Shown piece after piece: positions 32,068-41,814 of a stretch of 64,000 nucleotides of DNA. The DNA is from Bdellovibrio sp. ArHS (GTDB lineage Bacteria; Bdellovibrionota; Bdellovibrionia; Bdellovibrionales; Bdellovibrionaceae). The notes beneath the pieces were generated by a model. The model ran no database searches, had not been told where the DNA came from, and was given only the letters and a program-made list of their open reading frames with translations. Positions within the stretch are counted from its first letter, which is position 1. Each line of letters begins with the position of its first letter. Location: contig NZ_JTEV01000011.1 of the NCBI RefSeq assembly GCF_000786105.1, positions 1-64,000 on the forward strand, in the 5' to 3' direction. The position numbers and the translations under genes are program-made.

Positions 32068-32475
32068 CTATTTTTTATCGATACTGATCGCAAACTTCTT
32101 CACACCGGAACCCTTGACGATATCAAGAACTCCGACCACTTTTCCGTGCGGAACATCTTTATCCGCAGAAATAATGGCTTGCACATCGGCATTCTTCGCC
32201 ACTTCCTCTTGCGCTTTGGCTTGCACCTCAGCCTCACTGACAAAAGATCCGTTAAGATTAATTCTGCCGTCGGCGGTCAAGGCAATATTCAATTTGCTAG
32301 GAGCCGTTTGGTCTCCGCTAGCAGCCTTAGGCAGATTCACGTTGATCGTGGGCTTCATAAACATCGGGGCTGTCACCATAAAGATGATCAGAACCACCAA
32401 GATGATATCCACGAGCGGAACGACGTTGATATCCGCTATGGCTTCGTTATCATTTCCACCGTCTTTGAATGCCAT
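32068..32475 (-). CDS. ExbD/TolR-family proton-channel subunit
   Basis: 135 residues: a single N-terminal transmembrane helix (INVVPLVDIILVVLIIFMV) with the conserved channel Asp in PLVDI, then a periplasmic domain (INLNGSFVSEAEVQ, AIISADKDVPHGKVV). It uses the proton gradient with an ExbB/TolQ partner to power a TonB or TolA-like protein. Its partner gene 32479 ends three bases before its start. No TonB, TolA or TolB lies in the window. Confidence 0.92.
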   Translation of the reverse strand: MAFKDGGNDNEAIADINVVPLVDIILVVLIIFMVTAPMFMKPTINVNLPKAASGDQTAPSKLNIALTADGRINLNGSFVSEAEVQAKAQEEVAKNADVQAIISADKDVPHGKVVGVLDIVKGSGVKKFAISIDKK

Positions 32476-32478
32476 GGT

Positions 32479-33108
32479 TTAAACACCTTTTTTCTTAGCA
32501 TAAGCAAGGCAAAGCTCTTTAACACTTTCTAAGTTCTGGAAAATGCCTTTCACTTGTTTGCTATAATAATTGTAGAAGGCTACTGCGGGGATCGCGACGA
32601 AAAGACCTGCGGCTGTTGCGACAAGGGCCATGGAAATACCCGCCATCACCGTCTGTTGTCCCGCTTCCGGAGTTGTTGCCAAATCGTTAAAGGCTTTCAT
32701 GATACCCAAAACCGTACCGAAAAGACCGATGTAAGGCGCATTGGAACCGACAGTCGCAAGGAAACCCAGGAATTTTTCCAACTCTGGACGCTCCGTCAAA
32801 GCGAAAGTGTTAAAGATTTCTTCCAAACCTTTACTGCCCGCTTCGCGCATGTGCTTCAAGGCATAACCCGCCGCTCGACCCTCGATAGAATTAGGATCTT
32901 TTGCCAAATCTTCGACATCATCAAGACTGTTGCTTTGCAAAGCCAGCTTGATACGCGCGCGCACTCGCTGCGACTCCGCCGCGACTTTCTTCAAAGCGAA
33001 ATAGCGTTCCAAAATCATCCCGATGCTAAGCACACTGAGCACAAGCAAGATCCATAAAACGACCTGATCGGCCAGATGAGCTACTGTAAATATTTTTTCT
33101 GTGAGCAC
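32479..33108 (-). CDS. ExbB/TolQ-family proton-channel subunit
   Basis: 209 residues. The start is a GTG at 33108, with GGAGGAA six bases ahead; a TTG at 33123 would itself be part of that site. Three transmembrane helices: ~16-38, ~120-142 (APYIGLFGTVLGIMKAF) and ~155-180 (GISMALVATAAGLFVAIP), the last two forming the ExbB/MotA signature. It forms the channel with the following ExbD gene. Confidence 0.93.
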   Translation of the reverse strand: MLTEKIFTVAHLADQVVLWILLVLSVLSIGMILERYFALKKVAAESQRVRARIKLALQSNSLDDVEDLAKDPNSIEGRAAGYALKHMREAGSKGLEEIFNTFALTERPELEKFLGFLATVGSNAPYIGLFGTVLGIMKAFNDLATTPEAGQQTVMAGISMALVATAAGLFVAIPAVAFYNYYSKQVKGIFQNLESVKELCLAYAKKKGV

Positions 33109-33184
33109 GGTGATTTCCTCCAAATCTTTGACTGCGCAAAATTATTGATCCATTATCTCTAAAACCATTACTTCTGGTCAAGGT

Positions 33185-34996
33185 ATGCAGAAAGTCATTT
33201 TAACTCTTCTTCTCTCACTCCTGAGCTTGGTCCAGCTTTCTTGCAAGGCGAATGACAAAAACTCCGTTTTAGTCATCGCGGTTGATGAGCTGACGACAAG
33301 TGACGTCTTATGCAGCCAGGAAGAGGCTGAACGATCCGGTTTTCAATTGCTTTGCAATGAATCCGTTCGCTTCACTCACGCTTTTTCGCCCTCGACCCTG
33401 TCGGTTCCTGCCATGGCGTCCTTGTTGACCGGCCTTTATCCTTATCAGCACAAAGTTCGACACAATGGTCGCCCAGGTCTAGCTCCCGAGTTAGAGCTGG
33501 CTTCGGAGCTTGCTCTGCAACAGGACTATCGTACAAGCTTTTTTTCCGGCGGCGCCCCGGTGTTTCGCCGATCGGGATTGAATCAAGGGTTTGAACTCTT
33601 CGAGGACAACCTTGTGCCCACCTTCTCTAGTTTGTTTCGCCCCTTCAAAAAGAATGCGGACGCCTTTATGCAGTGGCTGCATCAGGATGTGGGGCCTGAT
33701 TCTTTCTTCAGCGTATTTTACGTTCCCGATCTGATCTTCACAACGACTGTGACAATGACAGATCTCGGGGAAACCCGAAACTTAAGCTTTGAAAGCCAAC
33801 TTGATGAACTTGATGAAAGCCTTTATGAACTCTTCCAGAGTCTTAAAGCCGCGAATCGCTGGGACAACACGACCGTAGTTCTTGTTGGACTTAATGGACA
33901 CACGACGAGCGAACGATACAAGGAGCTTTCTCCTTTAAACTTACACGGCGAAAACACCCAGGTCGCGCTATTTATAAAACCCTCTCAAAAAAGAAAACGC
34001 GATCTCGCCATTCACTGGAAAGTGGATCAGAATGTCTCTTTGGTTGACGTCGGTCGCACTCTTTTTGAACTTCTTGGTGAAAGCATTATCGACAACGATG
34101 CGGCCTCCTTTCCCGCCCTTTCTTTACAAGGAGCATTGAAAAGCCCTAATGTGACCTGGGCCGAGGACAGACCGCTTTTAATTGAGTCGGGTTGGGCCTT
34201 TTGGCGTAAGGCGGGACCGATTCGCAGCGCGGGGATCTCGCACCATGTTCTTTATATCAATGATGAAAGTCCGCTGCTTTACAATACGCTGGTCGATCGC
34301 TTTGAAGTGAATCCCCTGCCTTTGTTGCAGGAAAGTATTTTACCGACGACCCAGAAGCTGCAAAATTTGCTTAGCAAAAATCAGTTCCCGGCATTTCCTC
34401 CAATTCAATCCGAATGGACAAAGAAGCTAAGCCTGCCTTTTTCGCGCTGGATGCGTCCGGATCAAGAGGCGGATCTGCTACGGGATCTCAAACGTCTTTT
34501 GGCGCAACAACCCCAAAGTTTAGATCTGTTGAACTGGACGGCGCAAATAGCCTTAAATCAAAGGGATTGGGAAACGCTCAAAAATCTGGGAACTAAGAAC
34601 AAGATCTCGGTATGGCAGTACGTCGCCGAAAAAAACCTAAATAGTAAAACCGCCAAAGTCACTGACAGCTGCTTTCCTTTGTTAACCGTGGCGACTATCG
34701 AAACAGAACAACTGAAAAACTGCACGGATCCGCTCTTTCTGGAACTGGTTGACTGGCTTCGCGCAGAGGCGCGTGGGTTTTCCCGGGATGCGCAAAGAAA
34801 ACGCTTTGAACGTTCATTCAGAAATTACATGTTGGATCAACAGATTCAGCGGGCCAATATTGCCGCCGGTTTGATTTGGGACACGTCACGGGAAAATATC
34901 TTTGCTCCCTCACGAACAGAATTCGCGCTCAGCCTTCCTGAATACGCGCGCGTGCGAGCACAAGCCTATAAGGCCATCCAAACTGACGAATACTAA
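33185..34996 (+). CDS. Sulfatase-fold lipoprotein, probably inactive
   Basis: 603 residues. A lipobox ends at Cys20 (VQLSC). The alkaline-phosphatase/sulfatase fold is recognisable from VLVIAVDELTTSD, STLSVPAMASLLTGLYP and the late VVLVGLNGH. Key residues are changed: the nucleophile site reads S-V-P-A-M (Ser73) where sulfatases have C/S-x-P-x-R; the first metal-site Asp pair reads Asp-Glu; and the usual Asp-His-Gly of the later metal site reads Leu-Asn-Gly. The last ~200 residues are helical (LLRDLKRLLAQQPQS), TPR-like. It may have become a binding or scaffold protein on the outer membrane. Confidence 0.8.
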   Translation: MQKVILTLLLSLLSLVQLSCKANDKNSVLVIAVDELTTSDVLCSQEEAERSGFQLLCNESVRFTHAFSPSTLSVPAMASLLTGLYPYQHKVRHNGRPGLAPELELASELALQQDYRTSFFSGGAPVFRRSGLNQGFELFEDNLVPTFSSLFRPFKKNADAFMQWLHQDVGPDSFFSVFYVPDLIFTTTVTMTDLGETRNLSFESQLDELDESLYELFQSLKAANRWDNTTVVLVGLNGHTTSERYKELSPLNLHGENTQVALFIKPSQKRKRDLAIHWKVDQNVSLVDVGRTLFELLGESIIDNDAASFPALSLQGALKSPNVTWAEDRPLLIESGWAFWRKAGPIRSAGISHHVLYINDESPLLYNTLVDRFEVNPLPLLQESILPTTQKLQNLLSKNQFPAFPPIQSEWTKKLSLPFSRWMRPDQEADLLRDLKRLLAQQPQSLDLLNWTAQIALNQRDWETLKNLGTKNKISVWQYVAEKNLNSKTAKVTDSCFPLLTVATIETEQLKNCTDPLFLELVDWLRAEARGFSRDAQRKRFERSFRNYMLDQQIQRANIAAGLIWDTSRENIFAPSRTEFALSLPEYARVRAQAYKAIQTDEY

Positions 34997-35683
34997 TTAG
35001 ACATCAAGTTTGATCAGCCCCAACCAAAAAGGAGCTTCAGGATCTTCTTGAATCATTTTTGTCGTGACTGCCCCAAGTTCTGCGGGTTCAGCCTGAGAAG
35101 TCCACAGCGACGTCGCAATCGAGGTGCTTGCCAAAAGAACCAGACGATCCCCGTCGTTCACGAGGGTGTGGCCACATTGAATGGAACACGTCGGTTCTAG
35201 CCCCAAAAGTTGGGCTGGCAGCGGTGGTAATTTTTCGTCTGGTTCGACGCACTCACTGGATAAGTCCAACCCTATAGACAAGGGCTGAAGACTTTTGTTT
35301 TTTCGCTGAATTAAAAGACTGGGGCAACCCACCTGAGCCCACGCGATTTGCGAGCCGCGACGGAACAGGGCAAGAATTTCCACCCCTGAAAAATACTCCA
35401 TCTTGTTTTCGCCACGATAAAGAATGTCATTGGCAATCAAGATACCGGTTCTGACGTAATTGACTTCGTCTGTCAGGCAACTCAGGAACTCAAACGGCGA
35501 CGTCACTTCGACGTCGGATTTAGCTGCACTGACATACTTAACGACTTCATCCAAAGCCCTTTGCGCATGTTCTGGCTGCCCCCAAGAAGTGGCAATGACG
35601 ATCAACGAGCCATCCTCTTCCTGATGTACCAGGGGTTTGGGGCGAAGGATCTTTGTGCTGTAGGATCTTTCTTGCAGCTTCAC
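34997..35683 (-). CDS. PP2C-fold protein lacking metal-binding aspartates
   Basis: 228 residues from a GTG that shares one base with the stop of the FHA-FHA gene (TAGTG). The middle and end follow PP2C phosphatase strands: GVEILALFRRGSQIAWAQVG, then LQPLSIGLDLS, then NDGDRLVLLAS. In active PP2C enzymes those strands continue as VGDS and SDG; here they read VGCPS and STS, so the metal aspartates are missing. It is therefore a candidate pseudophosphatase, perhaps an inhibitor, scaffold or phospho-binding partner of the FHA proteins encoded in the same operon. The family assignment is inference from pattern. Confidence 0.7.
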   Translation of the reverse strand: MKLQERSYSTKILRPKPLVHQEEDGSLIVIATSWGQPEHAQRALDEVVKYVSAAKSDVEVTSPFEFLSCLTDEVNYVRTGILIANDILYRGENKMEYFSGVEILALFRRGSQIAWAQVGCPSLLIQRKNKSLQPLSIGLDLSSECVEPDEKLPPLPAQLLGLEPTCSIQCGHTLVNDGDRLVLLASTSIATSLWTSQAEPAELGAVTTKMIQEDPEAPFWLGLIKLDV

Positions 35684-37719
35684 TAAAGAGCTCCGTATTT
35701 CTTCAATTTGATGTAAGCTTTTTTATAATATTCCCCATCGGGAATATCGAGCTCCAGAATTTTTCGCCACTTGTCTTTTGCGCCCGCCTTGGATTCTCCA
35801 CCATCAACGTTACCAAAACTTTCCTCAAGAATTCCCTCTTGATAAATCGTCATCATCTGCTTACGCAGCTCCGTAGTATAACGTTCGATCTTTTCGGGAA
35901 GGTCTGGGTTCGTCGGGTCCATCACGCGAGCTTTACGCAATGACAAGATGGCGCCTTTTATGTTCTGGGCCTGATAATACTTTTCCGCCTCGCTTTGTAA
36001 CGTTGCCGTCTTGGAGTTCATCATTTGTCGGATCGAAGCGATGTTTCTTTTCGCCTGTCCCTTAAACCCGTTGGGGTCCGGCAAGGACGATGCAATGACA
36101 CGCTCGTAAGCGGCAATGGCATCCAAAGGTTTTCCTTTTTTGTGAACATTCTCAGCGCTCGTATAAATAGCGCGCAGCTTGGACACCTGCGTCTGATAGG
36201 CCATTCTTTCGGCAGCCTTCGCATCCCTTTGGGTCGTGATACTTTCCACCTGCATTTTCAAATCCACGATTTTAGGATGTTCGGGATTGAATTGCATAAC
36301 ATCACTTAAACACTCCTCCATCTCTGGCAGAGTGATATCCGGATTGACCTTCTTCTGGCATTCCGCCGCGACTTTTTGAATTTTCTCTTCTGTCTCTATC
36401 TTCGCTTTTTCAATCTGTTCTTGGCGACGTTGTTGCTCTTGAATAAAGATCGCTTCTTTTGAAAGACGTTCGATCTCGCGAATGTCTTCATAATCCGGCA
36501 CCAGTTCTTGAATCTTGACGATTTCATCCTGCGCTAACTGATATTTCCCCTGCATATACAGATTCTTGGCGTCTTTATAGCGCTGACGAACCAGAGCCTG
36601 CTTCTCGGGGGGAAGTTTGTTGAATATCTCAAGCGGAGATCCAGGCAAACTTATAGCGCCCGGTTGAGGCGCCGGAGGTTTCGCAGAGTTGTCGCCGCTA
36701 AAGAAGTACGCCAAAGCCAGCAAGGCCACTGCGCCCGCGATGATTTTTGGGCGATTTTTCTGGAAATCAAACTTTCCAGGTGCTGGAGTGGGAGCTGGCA
36801 TCGGCGCCCCAGGATACTGCATCGGCGGCTGATACGGCATAGGCGCCATAGCACCCTGATAAGGCATCAACTCATGGTGTTGCTGCTGATACTCCATCGG
36901 CAAGGCCTCGCTCCCCACCTGCACCAATGGATTTGGCGGCGGAACATTGACAAGCTCAAGACGACTTTGAAAACCGGCATCATGCAACTCGAAATACAAA
37001 TAATTCGTCAGAACACTGATCGCGTCCCCAGAACGAATGGGCGTAGGCTCGCTGGAAGAAATCGGATTTCCATTCAGCAAAGTGCCATTGACGCTGCCCA
37101 GATCAATAATCACATATTGAGAACCCGCGCGGCGAATTTCAAACTGACGTCGACTGACTCGTTGGTCACGAATTTGAATATGACAAGAAGATTCCCGTCC
37201 AGCGACCCATGACTCGCCAGCATCAAGACGAATCAGCTCTTTCGCTTCATTGTTTTGGCCATCCATGATTTTGATGTAGGCCACTTGTGGAGCCACACCA
37301 ATCACAGTCTTTTCTTCGCTGCCGCCAAACCCATCCGAACTTTCTCCGGGAACGGCTGGTAGATTCGCAGAAGTGCCACTGTATTCGGGCGCCGGTGGCG
37401 CGACGGATTCATCCGATGTGGCCGATGCAGTTGCCATATACTCAAATTCATAAGGAGAAATCACAAATTGACTGCCGTGATCTAAAGTGAACTGTTGAGT
37501 TTGTTCCCCATTGTAAGTCACATCTCCATAGCGGGAGATGACGTCCACGGTCCATGCACCATTGACGAAAGACACCTTAAAGTGTTCGCGAGAAATACCC
37601 TTTTCGGGTTGCAGAACAATATCACAGTCTTCTTTACGACCGGCGATGTACGTGCGGTCTTCAGCAAGCTGGATATCATAAACTGGTTTGCCTCGAAGGC
37701 GGACTTTAAGGCGGGCCAT
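35683..37719 (-). CDS. Membrane protein with two FHA domains and periplasmic repeats
   Basis: 678 residues. FHA-1 (~1-95) has IAGRKEDCD and ISREHF; FHA-2 (~145-245) has VAGRESSCH, VSRRQF (the conserved His is replaced by Gln) and SVNGTLLNG. A Pro/Met/Gln-rich linker (~270-320) leads to one transmembrane helix (~328-345, IIAGAVALLALAYFF). The rest is helical, TPR-like and charged (KNLYMQGKYQLAQDEI, ENVHKKGKPLDAIAAYE, YYQAQNIKGAILSLRKA). The FHA side is expected in the cytoplasm and binds phosphothreonine peptides; the repeats then lie in the periplasm. The start overlaps the stop of the preceding gene by one base (TAATG). Confidence 0.9.
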   Translation of the reverse strand: MARLKVRLRGKPVYDIQLAEDRTYIAGRKEDCDIVLQPEKGISREHFKVSFVNGAWTVDVISRYGDVTYNGEQTQQFTLDHGSQFVISPYEFEYMATASATSDESVAPPAPEYSGTSANLPAVPGESSDGFGGSEEKTVIGVAPQVAYIKIMDGQNNEAKELIRLDAGESWVAGRESSCHIQIRDQRVSRRQFEIRRAGSQYVIIDLGSVNGTLLNGNPISSSEPTPIRSGDAISVLTNYLYFELHDAGFQSRLELVNVPPPNPLVQVGSEALPMEYQQQHHELMPYQGAMAPMPYQPPMQYPGAPMPAPTPAPGKFDFQKNRPKIIAGAVALLALAYFFSGDNSAKPPAPQPGAISLPGSPLEIFNKLPPEKQALVRQRYKDAKNLYMQGKYQLAQDEIVKIQELVPDYEDIREIERLSKEAIFIQEQQRRQEQIEKAKIETEEKIQKVAAECQKKVNPDITLPEMEECLSDVMQFNPEHPKIVDLKMQVESITTQRDAKAAERMAYQTQVSKLRAIYTSAENVHKKGKPLDAIAAYERVIASSLPDPNGFKGQAKRNIASIRQMMNSKTATLQSEAEKYYQAQNIKGAILSLRKARVMDPTNPDLPEKIERYTTELRKQMMTIYQEGILEESFGNVDGGESKAGAKDKWRKILELDIPDGEYYKKAYIKLKKYGAL

Positions 37720-38867
37720 TAGAATCTACCCTCCAAGTTTAAAGTACACTCTTCATAGAACTGCTTGGCTTCCTTAAAGGAAGGATCGTCTTTACGATTT
37801 TGCAGCATCGTCATCACATTTTGATAATTGGATTGGCACATCCGCCAATTCTTCTTCTCTCTGTAACGATTGCCCTGAATCATATTAAATTTAACCAACT
37901 CATCAAACTTGATCTTAGATAAATGATAATAGCGTTTTGCCAACTCGTTGTCAGGGTCCAGATTAAGAACGACCTGAAAGGCTTCTCGAGCACGGGCGTA
38001 CTGACCTTGCTGAAAGTCTCGGAAGCCCTTGATAAAGTTTTCTTGCGCTCGACGGTACTGAATAGAATCATACTTCTCTTTTTTTATCGTTAAAAGCTCT
38101 TGGGAACGCTTTTCCGCATCCATCACGTCCTGCATGCTGATCGAACTGGTGCGAATAGCATTCGGATCTTTTTTTCCCTTATTGCCAGAGGACGAAAAGA
38201 ACCACCATCCCACCAACGCAACTATGGCAATGATGCCATAAAAGCGAACTTTAGGATTCGCTAACGGCCCTCCGCCCGCAGCGCGAGGCCCAGAACCTGG
38301 CATCGGGCCAGCCCCAGGAGGCGGCGGTTGATAACCGCCATAGCCCATGGGTTGCGCCGGTGGCATTCCCTGCGCAGGCATCGTCGGCAAACCCTGACCG
38401 TAAGGCATACTGGAATTTGCGGTCGGCATCGGGCGCGGCGGCATTTGCGGCTTCGGTATCTGCGCAGTCGGAGCCGGTGCTGGCGTTAAAATCGACGCTG
38501 TCGGTGACGCCAACGGCGCCGATTGTGAAACCGACGGCGGCAGTTCCGCTTGAAAGCGAATTTCTGTATCACCAATCTGAATCACCGAATCATTGTTAAT
38601 GATTTCGGACTGAATGCTTTGGCCATTGACCAAAACAAAATTTTTCTGACTTAGATTGACGATCACAAACTCGTGACCCGAGCGTTGCTTGATCTCTGCG
38701 TGTTGTCGACTGGTGCGCGGATCACTGGAAAGAACGATGTCGTTTTCAGGACCGCGACCGATTGTGACGGACCCCTTTGCAAAGGTGGACTTCAACCCCG
38801 CATGGGGACCTTTCGTCACTTCAATACTGAATTTCAAAGCATCTTTCACTTGAGGGGCCGCGCTCAT
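37719..38867 (-). CDS. Membrane protein with one FHA domain and TPR-like tail
   Basis: 382 residues. FHA domain ~10-105 (VTIGRGPENDI, TSRQHAEI, LVNGQSI; the NGT triplet is altered). A long Pro/Met/Gly-rich linker (~110-205) precedes one transmembrane helix (~208-228, GIIAIVALVGWWFF). The last ~150 residues are TPR-like (ENFIKGFRDFQQGQYARAREAF, NRYREKKNWRMCQSNY). It is a shorter version of the neighbour at 35683 with the same order of parts. Start and stop each overlap a neighbour by one base, so translation is coupled throughout. Confidence 0.9.
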   Translation of the reverse strand: MSAAPQVKDALKFSIEVTKGPHAGLKSTFAKGSVTIGRGPENDIVLSSDPRTSRQHAEIKQRSGHEFVIVNLSQKNFVLVNGQSIQSEIINNDSVIQIGDTEIRFQAELPPSVSQSAPLASPTASILTPAPAPTAQIPKPQMPPRPMPTANSSMPYGQGLPTMPAQGMPPAQPMGYGGYQPPPPGAGPMPGSGPRAAGGGPLANPKVRFYGIIAIVALVGWWFFSSSGNKGKKDPNAIRTSSISMQDVMDAEKRSQELLTIKKEKYDSIQYRRAQENFIKGFRDFQQGQYARAREAFQVVLNLDPDNELAKRYYHLSKIKFDELVKFNMIQGNRYREKKNWRMCQSNYQNVMTMLQNRKDDPSFKEAKQFYEECTLNLEGRF

Positions 38868-40537
38868 TACGAACCTCCCTCAGTTGGTGAAACTGTGACG
38901 ATGTAATAGTCTATCTCTTGACCACTGGAACACATTGCCTGACAGCTTAAAATACACAGATGCCCGCTGAACTCAAGTTGATCAGTGTGAATGGCGCGTG
39001 GATTTTCCCGCGTGCGCGCCAAAAGACCATCAAGATTCTGCTGAAGAGCCGCATCGGGAATTGTATTAAACATTTGCCCCTGAAGCTGCGCCACTTCCGC
39101 ATGCGCCACCTGAGCAAAAGAGGCACTGCATGCGATAATTCGACCTTCTCGTGAAATGGCGATGGAAGGAAAGCCAATCAACTGAACCAGATTTTCCGCC
39201 TCACCATCTTTATTCATGAAACCCGCAGCCCCCGGCCCCCCACTGTCAGATTCACCGTGAATATAGCGAGTCAGAAGACTGTTGATGTTGCCAATCAATG
39301 CCTGAAGTGCAGGGAATTGAAAATTCACTTCGGTATTGTCTTTCTTCTCTCTCATGGCTGTATCTAATTGCGCATTTAAAGTAACAATCGGATATTCAAT
39401 CAGCTTGTACATGAAGAAATAAATAAGCAATCCCACCAGCGACGCGATCACCAAAGTTTGCATGAACAGACTGATGGCCCTGCCGTCATCGAAAGCCAGA
39501 CTTCCAATATCATAAAGAACGATGGCATGGGCTTTTACCGCCTGTTCCCCGGTGTTGGGATCAAACAATCCAATCGGAAAACTGGCGCCAATTGTGGACG
39601 AGTCCACTTCCACCGATTGTGGTCGCATTTCTGTGCGTGCCTTATGCACAAAGGGTAAATCCGGTGTCGTTCCCGCCCGGGTCGCCGGCGCCAGAATCAT
39701 CCCATCAGATTGCTGAACAATAAGAACTTGCTTCACGCCATCTTCGGCTTCCGCTGCATTCGTACTTAAAGACGAATAACTGTTTTGCAAAAGAGCCGCT
39801 TGATTGATCGTGGCCAACGTACGCGCTATGGAAGCCGCCCGACGCTTACTTTCACTCACGATGCTAGCCCGGGTGATTGCCACCATCGGAATCATCGATA
39901 ACAAAGTCGTCGAAAAAATAAATAGAGCCACGAAACCCAGTAAGACCAGTTTCAACTCGAGGAACTGTGGCAGCTTGTAAACACCAGGCAAAGCCACACG
40001 ATCTAAATAGTCATTGACCTTATCCAACAACCCTTTGAATCCGCCTTGTTGGTAAGCGGGCGCCGGTGCTGGGCCGGGAGCGGCTCCAGGCATTGCGCCC
40101 ATGGGTTGAGGCATTCCGTGAGGCATTCCCATCTGTTGTGGCAGGCCCATTTGTTGTGGCATTTGCGGCGCGGCTCCTCCTCCGTAATAAGGCATCGGCG
40201 CAGGAACACCCTGACCTGCCTGAGAACGAGGTGCCTGTGGTCGCGCCTCCGGAGCCGGAATAACATCCACCAAAATATCGTGAATACCCAGCTTATCACC
40301 CAATCTCATGATACCGTTTTGAATACGAATACCATTAAGATAAGTTCCGTTACTGGATTTCAAATCTGTGATAACAATTTTTTCTTTAAAGACGGCAACT
40401 TCAGTGTGCTCCTTAGAAACACCGGGCGACACCAACTTAATGTCACATTGTGGAGCACGGCCGATGAGGTTTTTCCCCATCTTCAGCTCCACAATCTGTC
40501 CTGCCTGAGGGCCGGTTAAAATTCTAAGCGCCCACAT
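38867..40537 (-). CDS. FHA-domain membrane sensor with HAMP/PAS-like region
   Basis: 556 residues from ATG 40537 (GGGAG upstream; an ATG at 40555 is less well placed). FHA domain ~1-95 is canonical (LIGRAPQCD, VSKEHTEV, SSNGTYLNG). A Pro/Gln/Met/Gly linker, a first transmembrane helix (~197-222), a periplasmic segment (~225-345), a second helix (~350-372) and a HAMP-like stretch follow. The C-terminus (~435-550) is PAS-like (IGFPSIAISREGRIIACS). No kinase, cyclase or methyl-accepting domain follows, so output must be through protein contacts. Its start lies inside the end of the DUF192 gene. Confidence 0.88.
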   Translation of the reverse strand: MWALRILTGPQAGQIVELKMGKNLIGRAPQCDIKLVSPGVSKEHTEVAVFKEKIVITDLKSSNGTYLNGIRIQNGIMRLGDKLGIHDILVDVIPAPEARPQAPRSQAGQGVPAPMPYYGGGAAPQMPQQMGLPQQMGMPHGMPQPMGAMPGAAPGPAPAPAYQQGGFKGLLDKVNDYLDRVALPGVYKLPQFLELKLVLLGFVALFIFSTTLLSMIPMVAITRASIVSESKRRAASIARTLATINQAALLQNSYSSLSTNAAEAEDGVKQVLIVQQSDGMILAPATRAGTTPDLPFVHKARTEMRPQSVEVDSSTIGASFPIGLFDPNTGEQAVKAHAIVLYDIGSLAFDDGRAISLFMQTLVIASLVGLLIYFFMYKLIEYPIVTLNAQLDTAMREKKDNTEVNFQFPALQALIGNINSLLTRYIHGESDSGGPGAAGFMNKDGEAENLVQLIGFPSIAISREGRIIACSASFAQVAHAEVAQLQGQMFNTIPDAALQQNLDGLLARTRENPRAIHTDQLEFSGHLCILSCQAMCSSGQEIDYYIVTVSPTEGGS

Positions 40538-40874
40538 AAAGTTGATCTCCCACACTGACTTTCGTTTTGCTGACAGTGCCCGCTGCCATTTCGATCACCG
40601 AGCTGGCTCCCCACACAGGAAATACCAGGCGCCCGGGTCGAACATCTTCGTAGATGGCTTTCACCTTCAGGTTTTTATCCACGAAAACACAATCAATCGG
40701 AAACTGCATAAAGAACGTGTGAATACTATTGCACCGAAGAATCCATAAAGCTTCTTCGCCAGGCAACGAAGCACGTCCTAAAAGTCCCTTACCACGTGAC
40801 CAAAAAGTTTTAGCGACTTTCAGATCCGGAATTAAAGTTTGATTTGTCGTTTTGTTAATCAAAGCTGCCATCAT
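40524..40874 (-). CDS. DUF192 family protein
   Basis: 116 residues, nearly all DUF192 (COG1430): FWSRGKGLLGRASL, LRCNSIHTFFMQFPID, VFVDKNLKVKAIYEDV and PGRLVFPVWGASSVIEMAAG. The family role is not established. Many members have a signal peptide; this one does not. It sits two bases after the TadC-like gene and overlaps the FHA/PAS gene by 14 bases, so it belongs to that operon. DUF192 genes are often found near Tad/Flp pilus genes in other bacteria. Confidence 0.9.
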   Translation of the reverse strand: MMAALINKTTNQTLIPDLKVAKTFWSRGKGLLGRASLPGEEALWILRCNSIHTFFMQFPIDCVFVDKNLKVKAIYEDVRPGRLVFPVWGASSVIEMAAGTVSKTKVSVGDQLYVGA

Positions 40875-40876
40875 CT

Positions 40877-41785
40877 TTATTTCCCGCCGTACATAAAGGA
40901 AACCGCCACCGGTCCAAAGACGATAATGAAAACCGCTGGCAAAATAAACATCATCAAAGGAATCAAAATCGTTTGCGAAGCCTTGGCCCCGGCTTTTTCC
41001 GCGCGCACGAATCTTTCCAGGCGCATTTGCACGGATTGATCTTTCAAGACTTGAGAAATACTGGCGCCCGTCGACTCTGCATCCACAAGAACCGCGACGA
41101 AACTGGTGATCTCGTTCATATCCAGGCGTTCCGACATATCTTTCAAAGCCTGAGTTTTTGAAGCACCGATTTTAATATCTTTAAGAACAGTTCCCAATTC
41201 ATCCGCCAGCACACTTTCTGTCCCTTGCGCTTTATCCACGATCTTTTGAATTGCAGAGAAAAAGTCCAAACCGGCTTCCACGGAAAGGGCTAAAAGATCA
41301 ATGAAGAACGGAAGGTCCGCACGCACCGAAAGCTCACGACGTTTCTTTTCCCCTTTGGCGTGAATCTGGGGAAGATAAAATCCAATAAGCCCAACCCCGA
41401 CCAACATGGGAGCCGGCAAACCCAACTGCAACGAGAAGTTCATGATCAAAAGAAAGATCGGAAACATCACGCCCCAAAGAAGCTGTAAGCCAATAAATTC
41501 ATCTTCATTCAATTCAGCAGAAAGGCCCGAAGTTTTAATATATTTGCGCACACGCTTGCGATAACCTTCGCTGCGAATTCTTAAGGCATGCTGTAATGTG
41601 AATTGGTGTACCAAAGGACGCGAAAAGTTGATGATCGCGTTTTTGGACTTCACCGGCTCATCATTGTTGGCCCACGAAAGCTGCTGCTTGTCGGTGTTGC
41701 TTGCGAAAATAGAATTAACAAAGAGAAACACCGCCACTCCCGCGAGCAGCAAGCCAAGAATCAACATTAATTCTGCGCTTCCCAT
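40877..41785 (-). CDS. TadC-like type II secretion F-domain protein
   Basis: 302 residues: one helix at the N-terminus (LMLILGLLLAGVAVFLFV), two more near 105-145, a T2SSF cytoplasmic domain at ~165-275 (LPFFIDLLALSVEAGLDFFSAI, SFVAVLVDAESTGASISQVL) and a last helix at ~280-300. This matches TadC, one of the two inner-membrane platform proteins of Tad/Flp pilus systems. AGAGG lies six bases before the ATG. No TadA ATPase, TadB, flp pilin or secretin is found in this window, so it is the first gene of the FHA operon. The partner TadB-like protein may be encoded elsewhere. Confidence 0.88.
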   Translation of the reverse strand: MGSAELMLILGLLLAGVAVFLFVNSIFASNTDKQQLSWANNDEPVKSKNAIINFSRPLVHQFTLQHALRIRSEGYRKRVRKYIKTSGLSAELNEDEFIGLQLLWGVMFPIFLLIMNFSLQLGLPAPMLVGVGLIGFYLPQIHAKGEKKRRELSVRADLPFFIDLLALSVEAGLDFFSAIQKIVDKAQGTESVLADELGTVLKDIKIGASKTQALKDMSERLDMNEITSFVAVLVDAESTGASISQVLKDQSVQMRLERFVRAEKAGAKASQTILIPLMMFILPAVFIIVFGPVAVSFMYGGK

Positions 41786-41814
41786 TTATGCCTCTTTGTG
41801 TTCAAGTAAATCTC

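Follow-up and report, generated by a model that had tools for sequence, protein, structure and literature searches.

The classical Tad/Flp pilus, as in the Cpa system of Caulobacter and the Tad system of Aggregatibacter, contains Flp, RcpC, RcpA, TadA, TadB, and TadC. The Kil system of Myxococcus xanthus, which mediates contact-dependent killing, has a Tad core that is split over two clusters and is accompanied by several FHA proteins (PMC8460266 and PMC12075869). Seef et al. suggested that these FHA proteins, which are encoded in the Myxococcus kil clusters, act in an upstream signaling cascade, and grouped Kil-like systems of Bdellovibrionales with that of M. xanthus (PMC8460266). In Bdellovibrio bacteriovorus, flp1, flp2, and flp4 are needed for predation, and the TAD operon bd0109-bd0119 lacks TadV, which is missing from all Bdellovibrio (PMC5430801). 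A second operon, Bd0470-Bd0475, begins with TadC. The Bd0470::tn mutant has lost attachment, killing, and rounding, and the Bd0474::tn mutant attaches and has lost killing and rounding (PMC6561027). Bd0474 is reported to be attack-phase specific and binds the tetratricopeptide repeat (TPR) protein Bd0075; in AlphaFold-Multimer predictions, Bd0475 and Bd0473 form a pair with an interface predicted template modeling score (ipTM) of 0.604 (PMC12034629). The operon and its role in B. bacteriovorus predation are thus already known, and a Kil-like Tad assignment in Bdellovibrionales has been proposed (PMC8460266). Here, we analyze the corresponding operon in a window of 64,000 nucleotides from Bdellovibrio sp. 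ArHS (NZ_JTEV01000011.1, positions 1 to 64,000), where it occupies positions 34997-41785. Together with another Tad locus elsewhere in the genome, it probably encodes a split predation pilus of the Tad class (type IVb, Kil-like), to which it would contribute TadC and a five-gene control and scaffolding module.

The operon consists of six open reading frames, all on the minus strand, in which adjacent genes overlap or abut. The first encodes a TadC-like protein with a T2SSF domain (40877..41785, 302 aa; PF00482, E-value 3.4e-15) and is followed, after a gap of 2 bases, by a gene for a DUF192 protein (40524..40874, 116 aa; PF02643, E-value 4.2e-20). The third gene (38867..40555) encodes an FHA protein with a predicted sensor domain, hereafter the sensor-FHA protein (FHA E-value 4.4e-14). 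Its longest frame starts from a GTG at 40555 and gives 562 aa, yet the likely start is the ATG at 40537, which leaves an overlap of 14 bases with the DUF192 gene. Next are an FHA-TPR protein with one transmembrane (TM) segment (37719..38867, 382 aa; FHA E-value 4.3e-15; TPR_2 E-value 2e-5, below cut-off), an FHA-FHA-TPR protein of the same layout (35683..37719, 678 aa; two FHA matches, E-value 2.2e-28), and a putative pseudophosphatase whose PP2C fold is assigned from an AlphaFold2 model and fold matches (34997..35683, 228 aa). The last three junctions are overlaps of 1 base each. A preliminary description of this DNA had proposed a one-strand operon of six genes with gaps of at most 2 bases or overlaps of 1 to 14 bases, and this arrangement is confirmed, the 14-base overlap via the ATG at 40537.

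Above the Pfam cut-offs, the six proteins carry T2SSF, DUF192, and four FHA domains distributed over three proteins; the TPR and PAS matches of the FHA proteins are weak and below cut-off, and none of the six is named by NCBIfam at family cut-offs. The PP2C-like protein has zero Pfam matches, so that its fold assignment was a judgement until the structure was modeled. The proteins correspond to Bd0470 (TadC), Bd0473 (FHA-TPR), Bd0474 (FHA-FHA-TPR), and Bd0475 (PP2C-like), an equivalence that is based on gene order and close lengths (386, 674, and 228 aa for Bd0473, Bd0474, and Bd0475) and not on alignment. The Bd0470-Bd0475 operon likewise has TadC first, FHA proteins as Bd0473 and Bd0474, and a 228-aa hypothetical protein as Bd0475; the papers on it describe no DUF192 protein, sensor, PP2C identity, active-site loss, or phylum-wide tad linkage (PMC6561027 and PMC12034629). 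The literature on DUF192 with pili contained nothing relevant by title. In the literature outside most subscription journals we found no prior report of the linkage of the FHA module to tad genes across the phylum, the sensor architecture, or the order-wide pseudophosphatase, all of which appear unreported.

The remaining Tad components are encoded at one other locus. Genome-wide searches with T2SSE and T2SSF recovered two PilB/PilC-type pairs, a single Tad locus on contig C15, and the TadC of the window. PF00482 matched the two PilC-type proteins, the TadB on C15, and the window TadC, plus one weak protein below cut-off, which leaves the window TadC as the sole TadC candidate over cut-off in the genome. 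The C15 locus (L016) encodes a Flp-like pilin, small pseudopilin-like proteins, RcpC/CpaB (PF16976, E-value 1.3e-19), the secretin RcpA (PF00263, E-value 2.6e-19), a TadZ-TadA fusion of 738 aa, TadB, and a YD/RHS-repeat protein. The pilin (L016:5810-6265) matches Flp1_like just under the Pfam cut-off (E-value 1.6e-7), and its GQGATEYILL fits the GXXXXEY motif. No TadC is encoded at C15. Because this is the only other Tad locus and it lacks TadC, the Tad system is split over two loci, and across the genome TadA, TadB, TadC, RcpA, RcpC, and Flp, the core of a type IVb system, are all present.

The C15 locus matches the published bd0109-bd0119 operon, and both are without TadV (PMC5430801). No TadV prepilin peptidase was found in the tad loci; the single Peptidase_A24 of the genome lies on contig C2, and a shared PilD-type peptidase may replace TadV. 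In comparison with the classical Tad pilus, TadZ and TadA are fused, a DUF192 protein, three FHA proteins, a PP2C-like protein, and a YD/RHS-repeat protein are added, and TadV is absent from this genome. One of the two Kil clusters encodes both platform proteins and the second encodes the ATPase and secretin, whereas here TadC alone splits off with the FHA genes. The YD/RHS-repeat protein (L016:13531-15183, 550 aa, DUF6531 plus RHS repeats) is encoded directly after tadB and corresponds by position to Bd0109. Proteins of 540-620 aa occupy this position in nearly all Tad loci examined, and the YD/RHS-repeat protein probably belongs generally to this Tad system as an extra component.

TadC was found in 190 of 192 Bdellovibrionota genomes (E-value ≤ 1e-8) and the TadZ-TadA fusion in all 46 genomes tested. 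We compared 60 neighborhoods across the phylum, labeling the open reading frames by profiles grown from the window proteins. The six-gene set is complete and in the same order in 50 of them, with a 2.5-kb insert after tadC in genome G102 (L080). The remaining ten include four that are clipped by contig ends (L068, L074, L077, and L098), one in which tadC stands alone (L078, genome G110), and those in which the PP2C gene was undetected (L066, L069, L073, L079, and L082; families f9, f12, and f20). The DUF192 gene lies between tadC and the sensor-FHA gene in nearly all neighborhoods. A further 80 loci, the best of 514 relatives in public genome records, mostly have the same set and order; the record titles of these 80 mention no Myxococcota. 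Judged from the 60 neighborhoods, the recurrence of gene set and order appears to be far beyond chance. Among the plasmid records of relatives, the two TadC matches examined are ordinary Tad loci with no FHA or DUF192 neighbors in the listed annotation, and the sensor-FHA protein has one short FHA match only.

In other families, the module and the tad locus are physically joined. In nine genomes outside the family of the window (G003, G020, G023, G038, G074, G087, G101, G102, and G146), tadC and tadZA share a contig and a strand, with tadC 10-16 kb upstream, and the genes after PP2C encode Flp, pseudopilin and TadE-like proteins, RcpC, RcpA, TadZA, TadB, and the YD-repeat protein. Several of these joined loci also have a gene for a small TadV-like protein with multiple TM segments. 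In G110, where tadC lies on a different contig, DUF192-FHA-FHA-FHA-PP2C still runs into RcpC-RcpA-TadZA-TadB, which argues that the FHA module tracks the Tad locus and not merely tadC. Since the module sits within the tad locus in these families, even without tadC, it is most readily understood as part of the Tad pilus. Gene order in the nine genomes and in G110 argues that the window operon may act with the C15 locus as one machine.

All genomes compared from the order of the window have the two halves separated, by at least ~220 kb where they share a contig and on different contigs otherwise. The simplest reading is that an ancestral joined locus was broken both in this order and elsewhere in the phylum. 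A tree of TadC and the sensor-FHA protein places linked loci in two positions (families f13/f17/f22 and f10/f18) with unlinked groups between them; with its midpoint root, it is compatible with a joined ancestor that was broken more than once. These comparisons bear on several points of the preliminary description. The gene order, which it had proposed to look for in other Bdellovibrionota, is co-conserved and not scattered, and TadC as the platform, which it had named, is supported. Of its two explanations for the parts missing from the operon, the first is correct, as TadZ-TadA, TadB, RcpA, RcpC, and Flp are encoded together at a locus without tadC and Ser/Thr kinases are encoded elsewhere; the second, a module that works differently from a Tad pilus, is not supported, because in other families the module belongs to the tad locus.

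The sensor-FHA protein comprises an FHA domain, a long disordered linker, a TM segment, a compact extracytoplasmic domain, and a second TM segment continuous with a HAMP-like helix, after which comes a PAS domain. An AlphaFold2 model built from 43 orthologues has a mean confidence (pLDDT) of 85.7 and an overall predicted template modeling score (pTM) of just 0.51, and the arrangement of the domains is therefore not fixed by the model. Residues 7-100 of the model match GarA with Z 18.8 (range for GarA and OdhI, Z 18-19). Residues 226-356 match the sensor domain of CitA with Z 14.6 (range for the sensor domains of CitA, DcuS, and WalK, Z 13.6-14.6), and the extracytoplasmic domain is thus predicted to be a CitA/DcuS-like single Cache sensor. 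The whole protein resembles WalK without its kinase: Pfam shows no HisKA or HATPase kinase domain after HAMP/PAS, and PAS is the last domain of the model. Three neighborhoods (L071, L139, and L143) have an additional small FHA open reading frame, of ~101 aa in L071, between the DUF192 and sensor-FHA genes.

The FHA domains of this operon account for four of the nine over cut-off in the genome. Their GR..SxxH core is present in 60/60 sensor-FHA proteins, in 55/57 FHA-TPR proteins, and, in the FHA-FHA-TPR proteins, in 53/56 first and 37/56 second FHA domains. In the second FHA of the 678-aa protein the H is replaced by Q, which is also frequent in this order. This strong conservation of the phosphothreonine-site residues suggests that the module can read phosphorylated threonines. 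Both FHA-TPR proteins have one hydrophobic segment after the FHA part, and the flank on its N-terminal side carries more positive charge than that on its C-terminal side in 49/56 and 42/56 orthologues, which predicts cytoplasmic FHA heads and periplasmic TPR repeats. The repeats of Bd0474 are likewise predicted to be periplasmic (PMC12034629). Flank charges thus favor the periplasmic orientation that the preliminary description had proposed for the repeats, and cytoplasmic TPRs are not predicted.

The FHA proteins could instead be structural, forming an SctD/YscD-like inner-membrane scaffold around the Tad platform that reads no phosphothreonine. Single-TM FHA proteins with large periplasmic parts share the layout of SctD, Pfam Yop-YscD_cpl overlaps every FHA match, and the FHA-like domains of YscD and PscD are among the fold matches. 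However, eight of the nine invariant alignment columns of the 562-aa protein (G32, R33, S47, D64, S67, N69, G70, G75, and P290) fall in its FHA domain, including G32, R33, S47, S67, N69, and G70; in other classes, the same operon has a PP2C with core catalytic motifs; and the models type_III_yscD (best 29.9 bits, cut-off 86) and TagH (best 64.8 bits, cut-off 120.25) stay below their cut-offs for the window proteins. We therefore regard a purely structural role as unlikely.

The last protein of the operon is predicted to have a PP2C fold. The AlphaFold2 model, built from 36 orthologues, has a pLDDT of 92.8 and a pTM of 0.90, and its top Foldseek matches are PP2C phosphatases, with tPphA first (E-value 3.9e-13) and PstP and PppA included. 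VIA-align gives Z 20.7 across 214 residues, and a profile search that starts from the protein reaches PP2C sequences at 8e-28. We aligned the PP2C motifs of 51 sequences, 30 from the order of the window (the window protein included) and 21 from other families. The metal-binding aspartates of the ED, DGxGG, DG, and DN motifs are all absent (0/4) from the window protein and from all 30 sequences of its order. In the other families, DGxGG is present in 21/21 and the ED-motif aspartate in 20/21, and ten have all four or nearly all. The loss is thus a property of the order, and the protein, which the preliminary description had rightly called dead-looking, is predicted from its motifs to be a catalytically dead pseudophosphatase throughout Bdellovibrionales.

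It might be a functionless, decaying relic, an explanation that is compatible with the pilus assignment for the other five genes. The absence of the aspartates from all orthologues of the order would fit decay, as would the lack of a detected PP2C in some other families. A decaying gene is harder to reconcile with the clean predicted fold, the open reading frame, the operon position that is kept in the neighborhoods of its own order, and the predicted pairing of Bd0475 with Bd0473 (PMC12034629), and we consider a relic rather improbable. That the operon serves some other machine, for gliding or secretion, with tadC as a chance neighbor or a recruit, is very improbable and already largely refuted by linkage: FHA proteins are known in gliding (GltG), type VI secretion, and type III secretion, and the GltG, TagH, and YscD models do give weak matches, but all scores lie well below cut-off (for GltG, best 34.9 bits, cut-off 650), the module is contiguous with the remaining tad genes in several families even where tadC lies elsewhere, and the window TadC is the only one for the C15 locus.

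As the second locus of a split Tad pilus, the operon would most likely work as follows. TadC would be the second inner-membrane platform subunit, and the C15 locus would provide the remaining pilus components, namely the TadZ-TadA motor, TadB, RcpA, RcpC, and Flp. A Ser/Thr kinase acting in trans would phosphorylate a threonine of either a pilus component or a module protein, and the cytoplasmic FHA heads would bind the phosphothreonine and thereby recruit or release the TadC/TadB/TadA platform. The sensor-FHA protein would couple this phospho-reading to a periplasmic cue, e.g., prey contact, and the two FHA-TPR proteins would reach periplasmic partners such as Bd0075. The PP2C would undo the phosphorylation in other classes, whereas the copy of this order, its catalytic residues lost, is probably a binding adaptor. 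We infer the wiring between kinase and FHA proteins, the signal, and the adaptor role. Pseudomonas aeruginosa controls type VI secretion, an envelope machine, by a similar logic of kinase, PP2C, and FHA protein (PppA/PpkA-Fha1). The fold matches of the PP2C-like protein include PppA; the differences are that TagH stays below cut-off, the kinase is unlinked, and the PP2C lacks catalytic residues in this order.

A phospho-controlled, envelope-spanning machine was also the view of the preliminary description. Its machine part is now backed by the locus linkage, as a Tad machine, whereas control by phosphorylation is still something we infer. Several observations weigh against the assignment or this mode of control. 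The kinase-substrate pair and the FHA ligand are hypothetical, and no kinase gene was recognized next to the operon in the neighborhoods examined. PP2C is not indispensable, given that it is undetected in three families (f9, f12, and f20). Genome G029, of the same order and rated 100% complete in ~100 contigs, has TadZA and no match to TadC or to the 562-aa and 678-aa FHA proteins, which reflects either an assembly gap or a real loss of the block. Published mutant phenotypes also conflict, in that tadC is needed for attachment (PMC6561027) and flp mutants still attach (PMC5430801).

The search for TadA/TadB and kinase genes that co-occur with the operon recovered, besides TadZA, a Ser/Thr kinase in 141 of 144 genomes of the phylum. 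Two clear Ser/Thr kinases are encoded outside the operon in this genome, one of 646 aa with a C-terminal PEGA domain (L113:6923-8863) and one of 492 aa. Several genomes of the phylum have a relative of the PEGA-domain kinase as their only kinase. A relative of the C10:212925 kinase was found in 31 of the 36 genomes tested, and where a genome has a single kinase, this type is the natural candidate for the writer. The one PP2C_2 match of the genome is a canonical PP2C with intact catalytic motifs (L212:1366-2130, at C11:86910). It lies on the contig of the window, ~23 kb past its end, and is a possible replacement for the dead copy.

These data reveal a physical link between a five-gene FHA/PP2C/DUF192 module and the Tad pilus over the whole phylum and bear on how predators convert prey contact into the assembly of a killing or invasion pilus. 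They name a sensor-bearing receptor, a candidate conserved kinase, the one canonical PP2C of the genome, and the taxonomic order in which the phosphatase active site was lost, and each point can be tested directly in B. bacteriovorus strains HD100 or 109J. More tentatively, we suggest that Bdellovibrionota might share a Tad subtype that gates pilus assembly on contact through its own phosphothreonine relay, made up of a kinase in trans, a sensor-FHA receptor, two periplasmic FHA-TPR struts, and a PP2C switch. In Bdellovibrionales the eraser would have become a pseudophosphatase and the reversible switch a one-way or adaptor-controlled trigger of prey invasion.

Scans for promoters were uninformative on this operon. 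With 3 mismatches allowed, a FliA-type scan found 83 matches in the window (61 expected), none of which stands out near the tadC start, and was at chance level around the C15 Tad locus; sigma-70 promoter and terminator scans were also at chance level. The gene maf lies divergently on the opposite strand and starts 2 bases from the start of tadC (window 41785-41788), so that the tadC promoter is presumably inside maf. At the other end, a convergent sulfatase-like gene directly abuts the end of the PP2C-like gene (window 34996-34997). Both neighbors are conserved over much of the order. A stand-alone CpaF/TadA-type ATPase (L112:9430-10545, contig C3, 371 aa) has no pilus genes nearby; the next gene encodes a histidine-kinase-like membrane protein. 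A similar extra ATPase occurs in nearly every genome of the TadZ-TadA search, and in L064 and L140 a CpaF/TadA-type ATPase gene closely follows the PP2C gene. Genes for ExbD and ExbB/TolQ-type proton-channel proteins (window 32068-33123) adjoin the sulfatase-like neighbor of the operon.

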